The notes under the pieces were generated by a model, which made no database searches, was not told where the DNA came from, and worked only from the letters and a program-made list of their open reading frames with translations. The position numbers and the translations under genes were made by a program. From a virus, in IMG/VR virus record IMGVR_UViG_3300025118_000100, positions 1 to 29,068 of that record: a stretch of 29,068 bases of DNA. The stretch is one strand, 5' to 3'. Positions 25,737 through 29,031 of the stretch are shown in pieces. Numbering within the stretch: the stretch's first letter is position 1; every line of letters begins with the position of its first letter.

Positions 25737-26951
25737 ATGGCAGATGAATTTACAAAAAACAACAATGCCGGCACACGAGCCCTCTTTTATGATAGACAGC
25801 TTTATCAAGCCACCGCCGGGATGGCTCAGCCAGAGTGGTATGCCTCTTCTGGCGTAACTAATTTGCAAGATTTTCGAGAGAGCGAAAAAATACTTTATGG
25901 GAGAGTTAATCGCTATTATGTACCCATCTTTTTAGACACTAAGCGCACAGACCTCTCAAGCATCACTTTTGGCGCCAGCGGCCTGGGGCAGATAAGTGCG
26001 CTTCCATTTGTCGCGGAAGCATTTTCGCAGCTATCAATGCAATTTCAAAAAGGCATAGTGTCTGGTAAAATTTCCCCCGATGAGCGATACTTGAGCGATC
26101 TGAAGGCAGAAATAGCCTTCGAAGATCCACAAAATCTATATTACATATACACTAACAAGATCTCCGGACAATTGGTAAATTTTTATGTTGAAAATAAAAT
26201 AGTATTTAAAGATTTTAAAGAGTTTTTGGTGCACCTAAAAGAATCGTGGCGCCGCACTGCCCCTGTTTTCCCAATTACCTTTCCTGCATATATGAAAAGT
26301 CGATATTGCCCCATAACAACTACTGGTCTTGTGGTGGAAATTGCCGATAATCTTAGTTGTGCCGACGATCAAACTAAATTTGATGATTTTGTGGCGAGCA
26401 AAAATTGGAAATTTTATGTAAATGCCTGCCGGTCGTATGGTTTTGCTGTCGACCTTAACAACCCATGGAGACTAATAGCAGATATAGGATCTGGGGAGAT
26501 GGTAAAGTATGCGCGTAAATATGGGTTTTCCAGCACAGATGACATTCTTGAATCTGCCTACACTGTGGCTCACATGCCATTTTATACTGGATTTAAGTCG
26601 TTTGTGCTGTCGTTGTACAATCAACTGCGCACCAAACAATATATGGTTTCGGAATATTGCCAAAATAGCCAGGTCAAGACTCGCATAGAATATTCCATGG
26701 AGTATAAGGTGGAAGATCTTGAAAAGTTGTTTCCAGAAACCTTTTTCATAGACTTATATTGTTATCTGAGGTTCCTGGAAGAAGAAACTAAATTCTCCTC
26801 TGCCGAACAAGAGAGGATCACCAAAGATTGCATGGAGTTATATCGCATTCGAGGGATCTCCGAAGCCCTAAATCAGTTTGAAAAAATACTCAATAAGACC
26901 TATAGCTACAGAGGGTCCTTGACAGACCGAATGAATCGTGCTATCTTATGA
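25737..26951 (+). CDS. Conserved structural protein of the baseplate block
   Basis: A 404-residue mixed alpha/beta protein without membrane segments. It begins G-T-R-A-L-F-Y-D-R-Q-L-Y. The centre is rich in aromatics: N-L-Y-Y-I-Y-T-N-K, F-K-D-F-K-E-F-L-V-H-L-K-E-S-W, then F-P-A-Y-M-K-S-R-Y-C-P and G-L-V-V-E-I-A. A conserved-looking N-P-W-R-L-I-A-D-I-G-S-G-E-M lies near residue 240. From memory, proteins with a CP...GLVIEIA...PWRLVADL pattern occur in the tail blocks of aquatic T4-like phages with no assigned role. AGGAGG lies eight bases before the ATG. It ends the structural block, 29 bases before the polymerase gene. A baseplate or connector role is likely but not shown. Confidence 0.65.
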   Translation: MADEFTKNNNAGTRALFYDRQLYQATAGMAQPEWYASSGVTNLQDFRESEKILYGRVNRYYVPIFLDTKRTDLSSITFGASGLGQISALPFVAEAFSQLSMQFQKGIVSGKISPDERYLSDLKAEIAFEDPQNLYYIYTNKISGQLVNFYVENKIVFKDFKEFLVHLKESWRRTAPVFPITFPAYMKSRYCPITTTGLVVEIADNLSCADDQTKFDDFVASKNWKFYVNACRSYGFAVDLNNPWRLIADIGSGEMVKYARKYGFSSTDDILESAYTVAHMPFYTGFKSFVLSLYNQLRTKQYMVSEYCQNSQVKTRIEYSMEYKVEDLEKLFPETFFIDLYCYLRFLEEETKFSSAEQERITKDCMELYRIRGISEALNQFEKILNKTYSYRGSLTDRMNRAIL

Positions 26952-26980: not shown

Positions 26981-28168
26981 TTGCTTTTTCAAACACTGGA
27001 TGACAAAAACGAATGCGTTGGAGTATATGTTGATGGAAAGTTGCATTTCGACGCCATTCCGACACCTCTGACAAAAACGTGGAAATTTACCGGCTCAGTA
27101 GACTCGCATGCGGTACAATATGCATGGATTTACTGCAATGGCAGGAGTATGGCGGAGGTTTGCCCGGATGAGCTTCGTGAAAATTGGGAACGTTGTTCAA
27201 AAAAGCTGACGGCATACAAAAAAGCTTTTGCGATTGCAAAGCTCGATTTACGACAACATTGTTTTTTTGATTTGGTTCCGCATGACGCATTGCTTGAGTT
27301 CTGTGATGTCAAAAACAAAATTACTGAGTATGTTTTTGAGAATTATGAAAGACCTGCAAACTATGAGCACCTTAAAAATGCTGCGGCCTTATTGCACAAG
27401 CTCAAACACCAAGACTTGAAATTGGAAAGTAAGAATTGTCGGTCATTATTTACCAATAGCACACTTCACAGCGGCGCTAAGAAGATTTTGAGCGGCAATA
27501 GGTATATTAATTATAACCTTTTCGGCACCGTTACGGGGCGCCTTGCAACTCACCCTTCGTCGTTCCCCATCTTGACTATGAAAAGAGAGCTTCGAAGCCT
27601 CATAAAGCCTGCAAATGATTGGTTTCTTTCTTTAGACTATAATGGTGCCGAGGTGCGCACGCTGCTGGCGCTGTCCGGGCAAAAGCAGCCCAACGTGGAT
27701 ATTCATGAGTGGAATGTCATCCATGTTTTCGAGAATGCAACGATGACCCGCGAAGAGGCAAAAACGATCTTCTTTTCGTGGCTATATAACCCGGATTCCG
27801 ATCACATTGAAACTAATCACTATGATCGCAAAAAAGTACTTGACAAGTACTACGATGGTGACTATATTAATACTATATTTGGGAGGCGCATTATGGTGTC
27901 GCCAAAAAAAGCATTCAATTATGCTATACAGAGCACCACTGCCGATCTTGTGATTGACAGGGCAATTGCATTGGACGAATACTTAGATGGAAAAAAGTCA
28001 TTTATATCGCATATAGTCCACGATGAGGTGGTGATAGATTTAGCAGACGAAGATCGAGACCTAATACCAGAGATGAAAAACATTTTTGCAAAAAACAAGA
28101 TGGATGAATTTATGGTTAACCTGAAAGCCGGCCGCGACTACTATAATCTCAAGACACTATCACTATGA
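26981..28168 (+). CDS. Compact family A DNA polymerase (polymerase domain only)
   Basis: A 395-residue family A (Pol I-type) polymerase core. From the start at TTG 26981: F-G-T-V-T-G-R-L at 181-188; motif A L-D-Y-N-G-A-E-V-R with catalytic Asp219 and Glu224; D-I-H-x-W-N at 240-245; motif B Arg257, Lys261, Phe265, Tyr269 (R-x3-K-x3-F-x3-Y, with Phe at the E. coli F762 position); Q-S-T-T-A-D-L at 317-323; motif C H347-D-E. All polymerase metal ligands are present. No 3'-5' exonuclease or 5' nuclease motifs occur in the 180 residues before. The distance from motif B to the Q-S-T segment is much shorter than in E. coli Pol I, so the fingers are reduced. T4 uses a family B enzyme, so this marks a different replication system. 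GAGGTG lies four bases before the TTG. Confidence 0.88.
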   Translation: MLFQTLDDKNECVGVYVDGKLHFDAIPTPLTKTWKFTGSVDSHAVQYAWIYCNGRSMAEVCPDELRENWERCSKKLTAYKKAFAIAKLDLRQHCFFDLVPHDALLEFCDVKNKITEYVFENYERPANYEHLKNAAALLHKLKHQDLKLESKNCRSLFTNSTLHSGAKKILSGNRYINYNLFGTVTGRLATHPSSFPILTMKRELRSLIKPANDWFLSLDYNGAEVRTLLALSGQKQPNVDIHEWNVIHVFENATMTREEAKTIFFSWLYNPDSDHIETNHYDRKKVLDKYYDGDYINTIFGRRIMVSPKKAFNYAIQSTTADLVIDRAIALDEYLDGKKSFISHIVHDEVVIDLADEDRDLIPEMKNIFAKNKMDEFMVNLKAGRDYYNLKTLSL

Positions 28169-29031
28169 TTTCTATTGTTGGTATTGGCAATGGTGCCAGT
28201 GCCATTGCAGAAAAATTTGTCAATTTCCCTCAGTATAACGTGTATGTGCTGAATGACAAGGTTGAGAAATCATCCGGCAAGAAGCGAAAGCTAAAGAGGT
28301 TCACAAGCCCTGAAGATTATGAGGAGAATATTCCCGATCTCACCAAGTATTTTTCTAAAATTGACAATCACGTTCAAGTTTTTGTGATGGGTTCGTCCTA
28401 TAGTTCAAATTACGCCTTGGGGATCCTGCAGCAGATTAGCACTAAAAATGTTGATGTCTTCTATATTCAGCCAGACACCACGCTGCTTACCGGTATTCCT
28501 CGCCTAATGGAGCGAGCCGCATGTGGAGTGCTACAAGAGTATGCGCGCTCAGGGCTCTTTAGTTCAATTACAATAATTTCTAATAAAAACTTAGAAGAAG
28601 CTCTGCAGCGAGTCCCGATTAAAAAGTTCTATGATCATCTTAATTCATCAATTGCGTCTACCGTTCATTATTTAAATTATTTCTTGCACAATGAACCCGA
28701 GATTGGGGTGATAGCTCCCCCTATTGATCATGCGCGTATACGCTCAATTGCAATATTGGAAACTCAGAATATTGAAGAAAAATGGCTTTTTGAGCTTGAC
28801 ATGCCGCGCCAGCTGTGTTATTATTTCTGTATAAACAAGGAAAAGCTTGAGACCGACGGCGGCCTTCACAAGAAGATCGTCGACCGCCTAAAGCAGAAGC
28901 CAAGGAACGCATTCAGAAACGTCTCGTATGCAATCTACGAGACTGAGCACGGAAAAGACTTTGGGTTTGTCGTGGCCCATACAAACGCGATACAACAACA
29001 AAATACCCTTGACAAGTTAGATCAAGGGTGA
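28165..29031 (+). CDS. Divergent FtsZ/tubulin-like protein
   Basis: A 288-residue protein whose block order follows FtsZ. I-S-I-V-G-I-G-N-G-A at the N-terminus matches the first strand and Gly loop. V-Q-V-F-V-M-G-S-S-Y-S-S-N-Y-A at 70-84 occupies the place of the G-G-G-T-G-S box but lacks its glycines. V-D-V-F-Y-I-Q-P precedes a helix. I-T-I-I-S-N-K-N-L-E-E-A-L at 135-147 matches the I-P-N-D-K-L-L segment, and F-Y-D-H-L-N-S-S-I at 155-163 matches the F-x-x-A-N-x-x-L helix. P-P-I-D-H-A-R-I at 185-192 could be the synergy (T7) loop. The C-terminal 90 residues form a second domain. Tubulin-type GTPases (PhuZ) centre the phage nucleus in some jumbo phages. Here GTP binding is doubtful. The ATG overlaps the polymerase stop (ATGA). 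Confidence 0.6.
   Translation: MISIVGIGNGASAIAEKFVNFPQYNVYVLNDKVEKSSGKKRKLKRFTSPEDYEENIPDLTKYFSKIDNHVQVFVMGSSYSSNYALGILQQISTKNVDVFYIQPDTTLLTGIPRLMERAACGVLQEYARSGLFSSITIISNKNLEEALQRVPIKKFYDHLNSSIASTVHYLNYFLHNEPEIGVIAPPIDHARIRSIAILETQNIEEKWLFELDMPRQLCYYFCINKEKLETDGGLHKKIVDRLKQKPRNAFRNVSYAIYETEHGKDFGFVVAHTNAIQQQNTLDKLDQG
29005..29029 (+). other. Hairpin across the end of the tubulin-like gene
   Basis: ACCCTTGA at 29005-29012 pairs with TCAAGGGT at 29022-29029 around nine bases; the stop codon TGA starts on the last stem base. No T run follows, so it is not a classic terminator. It may protect the 3' end or mark RNA processing. Confidence 0.4.

Follow-up and report, generated by a model that had tools for sequence, protein, structure and literature searches.

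T2, a family with a divergent tubulin fold, is encoded in the core replication operon of hundreds of marine T4-like phage contigs and is paired with a canonical tubulin of the same phages. The family is named here from an open reading frame (28165-29031) of IMGVR_UViG_3300025118_000100, a virus contig of 29,068 bases that was analysed whole and is referred to below as the window. The canonical tubulin/FtsZ, which we call T1, lies elsewhere in the genome. The placement of T2 in the DNA-copying cluster, with T1 elsewhere, suggests that replication of the phage DNA is linked to a cytoskeleton made by the phage. The phage tubulins so far described (PhuZ, TubZ) are filament-forming GTPases.

The T2 gene in the window

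The gene, its upstream neighbors and the parts of the protein discussed below are as follows. Loops are named as in FtsZ; counts are from an alignment of 200 T2 proteins unless loci are given.

25737-26951, plus strand: gene of unknown function (404 aa), 5′ of polA, at the boundary of the replication module
26981-28168, plus strand: compact family A DNA polymerase, 395 aa (PF00476, E 2e-15)
28165-28168, plus strand: ATGA stop/start overlap of polA and T2, exactly 4 bases, kept in 211/218 measured loci
28165-29031, plus strand: T2, predicted tubulin/FtsZ-fold protein, 288 aa, ATG start
28180-28203, plus strand: equivalent of the T1 loop, residues 6-13, GIGNGASA (from alignment)
28390-28413, plus strand: equivalent of the T4 box, residues 76-83, GSSYSSNY in place of GGGTG(S/T)G (from alignment)
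28579-28596, plus strand: T6 loop, residues 139-144, SNKNLE (N140 in 197/200, E144 in 200/200)
28627-28689, plus strand: helix H7, residues 155-175 (Y156, Y or F in 197/200; N160 in 200/200)
28690-28707, plus strand: equivalent of the T7 loop, residues 176-181, NEPEIG (from model and alignment), with no H8 after it

The original prediction was built on four sequence blocks, and all of them lie where it had placed them: GIGNG at residues 6-10, GSSYSSNYA at 76-84, SNKNLEEAL at 139-147 and FYDHLNSSI at 155-163. The pattern is not due to chance: the frame has been conserved across hundreds of IMG/VR contigs, and the predicted fold is that of tubulin/FtsZ over the whole chain. The coupling to a DNA polymerase gene, also proposed, is real, the ATG of T2 overlapping the TGA of polA. 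The assignment to a T4-like phage holds as well: the window carries a head protease, a gp23-type capsid protein, sheath, tube and baseplate genes, and the gp32-type SSB and UvsX found downstream in a matching contig (L001) fit this context. The DNA polymerase A (26981-28168) is only 395 aa long, and in L001 the 5′-3′ exonuclease is a separate gene downstream.

The predicted fold

AlphaFold2, supplied with 116 relatives, gave a confident model of T2 (mean pLDDT 90.4, pTM 0.89); an earlier model from 21 sequences (pLDDT 51) was discarded. When the PDB was searched with Foldseek, the best matches were TubZ (E 1e-13) and FtsZ (about 1e-12). By VIA-align, the Z-score was 23.1 with CetZ, 22.2 with TubZ, 22.0 with FtsZ and about 21 with tubulins. 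In these alignments 261-284 residues were matched to the tubulin superfamily across residues 1-288, and the C-terminal domain is therefore included. The best 50 matches listed in both PDB fold searches were tubulin-superfamily chains, and proteins annotated as FtsZ or tubulin were among the best viral structure matches. The tubulin/FtsZ fold, first proposed by eye with structure prediction named as its test, is thus borne out over both domains by a confident model in which no other fold appeared (Z 21-23), and on this modeling we consider it nearly certain. That T2 could be a Rossmann-type enzyme or an NAD(P)-binding regulator, resembling tubulin through a common alpha/beta core, is extremely improbable: the sequence matches of this kind were all below threshold (F420_oxidored, E 0.2, for T2; Shikimate_DH, 0.0057, for one relative), the listed fold matches go the other way, and a chance similarity of Rossmann cores is ruled out by Z-scores above 20 and by the coverage of the C-terminal domain.

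The family match by sequence, which was also expected, was obtained in one form and failed in another. A profile of T2 aligned by hhalign with a mixed profile of FtsZ, PhuZ, phage G gp138 and T1, colinearly over residues 1-273 (E 4e-5, probability 70%; 0.29 for the reversed control). Neither FtsZ (0.077) nor T1 (0.031) gave a significant alignment by itself, both of these profiles being shallow, and a Pfam search gave no match of PF00091 to T2 or to its relatives.

Distribution of the family

Twenty-eight close relatives of T2 were found in IMG/VR virus contigs, and a scan of IMG/VR contigs confirmed at least 588 relatives. The carriers are hundreds of contigs of marine T4-like phages, which are abundant ocean phages. 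Our alignment holds 200 distinct full-length proteins with a minimum pairwise identity of 42%; 129 are left after thinning at 90% identity.

Sequence searches of Pfam, PHROGs and the PDB gave no significant match to T2, and the tubulin superfamily is hereby extended to a family that these libraries did not recognize. T2 was also not found among cultured phages, in the 50,697 phage records of INPHARED searched at E 0.1 and at E 1, or in GTDB contigs by a scan reliant on exact short patterns. The genomes with the closest capsid proteins (Microcystis phage Mel-JY01, Flavobacterium phage immuto, RM378 and two huge phages) yielded neither T1 nor T2; one of them has a sub-threshold PF00091 fragment. 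Some INPHARED records labelled as phage, OR846604, MT835570 and OR845317 among them, carry an ordinary bacterial ftsZ, probably from host contamination, and served here as FtsZ sequences only.

The nucleotide pocket

T2 has lost the loops of the standard GTPase. The box GGGTG(S/T)G is absent from all of the 200 proteins, a near-invariant GSSxSSNY or variants of it standing in its place, and the degenerate glycine box first noticed in the window is thus common to the family. Nothing in T2 corresponds to the T3 phosphate loop, GxGAGxNPExG, and in the model DSSP finds no helices at the positions of H8 and H9. The acidic residues of the T7 loop, E177/E179, are present in most members of clade T2a and are replaced in most of T2b and T2c. 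Since T2 has neither a PF00091 match nor the signature box, neither tubulin GTPase nor PhuZ is the right label for it. To judge from sequence and model, T2 most likely gave up standard GTPase chemistry.

The base side of the pocket is different. N140 in T6 and Y/F156 and N160 in H7 correspond to N165, F182 and N186 of E. coli FtsZ, a correspondence drawn from a weak profile alignment and secondary structure. These residues are kept in nearly all of the 200 proteins, and the T1, T4 and T5 loops are more conserved than average (column entropy of 1.0, 0.7 and 0.7, respectively, vs. a mean of 1.2). The pocket therefore looks rebuilt and constrained rather than dead or decayed, and the description of T2 as GTP-binding-deficient in the original prediction is not supported as it was put. 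We lean, if only slightly, towards a pocket that binds a nucleotide. It should be noted that conservation extends beyond the pocket, the most conserved regions being the end of H5 and strands S9-S10. The loops of the opposite face range in entropy from 2.6 (H1-S2) down to 0.2 (the end of H5), and hence one patch of that face is also highly conserved.

In the minor clade T2c (L381, L384, L387, L389), residues 76-83 read GSGRTANA and the T1 loop, GIGTAGEN, is FtsZ-like (GVGGGGGN in FtsZ, by alignment). From its sequence, this box is a possible evolutionary step from GGGTGSG to GSSxSSNY.

The replication operon

T2 is a core gene of the replication operon. Its upstream neighbor is polA in 294/303 loci and its downstream neighbor a gp32-type SSB gene in 283/285, counts that are not independent since several loci are overlapping stretches of the same contig. 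On the 3′ side of the SSB gene follow UvsX/RecA, dCMP deaminase, 5′-3′ exonuclease and a DnaB-like helicase. In a few contigs, pentapeptide-repeat genes intervene between polA and T2, and T2 is still directly before the SSB gene; these arrays (L289:478-2965, L291:419-2973, L288:1577-2939) have a common leader, MKLTKxxLKQIIKESxEDE. Genes that by eye resemble DNA adenine methylases are variably present between SSB and UvsX (L118:9986-10894, L134:8740-9633, L112:9323-10147).

The divergence of T2 follows that of its operon. In a set of 83 non-redundant loci, the distances of T2 are correlated with those of polA (0.60) and SSB (0.65), and far less with those of the 404-aa gene (0.23). T2 thus belongs to the replication module. 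The partial correlations (0.24 for T2-polA, 0.42 for T2-SSB) do not single out a direct contact with PolA. Although membership of an operon does not prove function, we think it quite likely that T2 has a role within replication.

A canonical tubulin in the same phages

These phages also encode a second, canonical tubulin, outside the stretch on which the original prediction was made. When five large T2 contigs were searched with PF00091, four had a separate gene, T1, that scored over the Pfam cut-off; T1 matches the model with 42 bits. The protein is about 380 aa long and similar in sequence to FtsZ structures (E 3.5e-10). Its GGGGGGTGSS, N225 of T6 and D270/D273 of T7 are invariant in 17 aligned members. 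The gene comes after an SbcC/gp46-like gene. In marine T4-like phages the T1 family (L165:1297-2445, L166-L234) has a conserved N-terminal extension of 63 aa, acidic and proline-rich. T1 was not found in cultured phages, apart from a weak match to gp138 of Bacillus phage G.

In 8 of the 21 large contigs tested, both genes are present and share a strand, T2 lying about 39-45 kb downstream of T1; one of the eight spans the ends of a 195-kb contig (circular permutation assumed) and two have T1 cut at the contig end. In the other 13, the partner would lie past the end of the contig, or almost past it in one case (G015). Two further contigs, 3300030329_004103 and 3300010883_000064, also have both. 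Ten contigs thus carry T1 with T2 and none contradicts the pairing, which is known from relatives, the window itself being a 29-kb fragment. The two families differ greatly in divergence: identity to the query goes down to 42% in T2 and stays at 81-91% in T1.

An N-terminal leader, MKxLxENWxxFLxE, is shared by at least 26 distinct proteins over all the loci, including genes next to T1 (examples are L315 7724- and 9938-, on the minus strand, and L313 18115+). We presume that it recalls the capsid-targeting sequence of T4.

What T2 may do

The reading that we prefer, in the knowledge that it may well be wrong, is that T2, whose gene is coupled to that of the polymerase, is a tubulin-fold partner that does not hydrolyse GTP and joins the replisome to T1 filaments. 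With a gene that overlaps polA and comes directly before that of SSB, T2 would be a fixed part of the replication module and would be in contact with T1 and with PolA or SSB. The rebuilt pocket would most likely still take a guanine-type base and not hydrolyse GTP. T2 would then probably serve T1 as an end cap, seed or adaptor, and replication complexes could be tethered to, or positioned on, T1 filaments through it. That T2 is the partner of T1 is itself a tentative proposal; the distance between the genes, about 40 kb, counts against it. More speculative, and on the unlikely side, is the full picture of a phage that has no nucleus but physically binds its replication to a cytoskeleton of its own making, with a T2 that no longer hydrolyses GTP seeding or capping the filaments of an active T1. 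We also considered the T7 loop of T2 as an activator of the T1 GTPase and dropped the idea: with E177/E179 lost in T2b and T2c, T2 cannot generally have that function.

The main rival to a filament-linked partner of T1 is a PolA accessory subunit without a filament. T2 would be a dedicated part of a short-PolA replisome, as a processivity, proofreading-platform or handoff factor, and would use its fold as a scaffold. In keeping with this are the ATGA overlap by which T2 is coupled to a PolA of 395 aa, the fixed slot before SSB, and the lack of H8 and H9 in the model; H8 takes part in the filament contacts of tubulins. The gp45-clamp families had no match in the large T2 contigs tested, which is weak evidence, since such a search would overlook a clamp that has diverged. 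Against this reading, all genomes that could be tested have a canonical tubulin alongside T2, and the partial correlation of T2 with polA is no higher than that with SSB. We hold such a subunit to be somewhat unlikely.

Autonomy is a less probable state for T2. As a second phage tubulin in its own right, it would bind and hydrolyse GTP with a serine-rich box and form its own filaments. The conserved base-side residues and pocket loops would suit such a protein, box intermediates such as GSGRTANA occur, and the box of phiKZ PhuZ, which the original prediction had assumed to be kept in PhuZ, also departs from GGGTG and reads GGASGS. Yet the T3 phosphate loop, H8 and H9 are missing, the acidic residues of T7 vary by clade, and T2 has diverged far more than T1, all of which makes an autonomous T2 rather improbable.

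Lastly, an inhibitor or decoy partner of host FtsZ that blocks division, a role suggested at first, found no specific support and is quite improbable: capping of FtsZ by a tubulin fold whose GTPase loops are altered is conceivable in principle, but fits poorly with a gene position that is fixed between polA and SSB throughout a divergent family, and T1 of the same phages is the nearer candidate partner. The inhibitors of FtsZ known to us from phages are small unrelated proteins.

In sum, T2 and T1 make two propositions testable, that a tubulin fold can serve DNA replication and that phages outside the nucleus-forming group have a cytoskeleton.

Comparison with known systems

T1 and T2 are of the same superfamily and the same phages. 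T1 has the box, N225 of T6, D270/D273 of T7, the 63-aa extension and a slow rate of evolution, whereas T2 is without the box, T3, H8 and H9. The whole-chain fold of T2 is common to TubZ (4ei7, 2xka), CetZ (3zid) and FtsZ (2r6r), with Z of 22-23. Identity to these proteins is 9-15%, and T2 differs from them in being shorter, in having no GGGTG box and in being neither a plasmid nor a cell-division gene. The N-site of alpha-tubulin and the FtsZ-like domain of plant ARC3 are cases of a tubulin fold in a partner without GTP hydrolysis. They offer a possible working analogy for T2, as a non-hydrolysing partner of an active paralogue.

PhuZ of phiKZ (gp39) is, like T2, a phage-encoded tubulin fold with a non-canonical box. 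It differs in setting, PhuZ being found in nucleus-forming jumbo phages (PMC12908238, PMC4244570) and T2 in a T4-like replication operon. The PHROG of PhuZ gave no match to T2, and the phiKZ shell protein was not found in six related contigs with one sequence query, which a diverged shell could escape. Two FtsZ/tubulin representatives are on record among jumbo phages (PMC7824862), and a tubulin in marine phiKZ-like phages (PMC9123017). Our searches of the open-licence PMC literature returned no title or abstract that deals with a T4-like replication operon containing a tubulin-fold protein, or with a phage that has a canonical/degenerate pair of tubulins. Finally, the AlpA/AlpC system of prophage CGP3 provides a case in which an adaptor links phage DNA to a phage-made filament and aids replication (PMC4446434). 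There, the filament is actin-like and the adaptor binds DNA, and unlike T2 neither has a tubulin fold.
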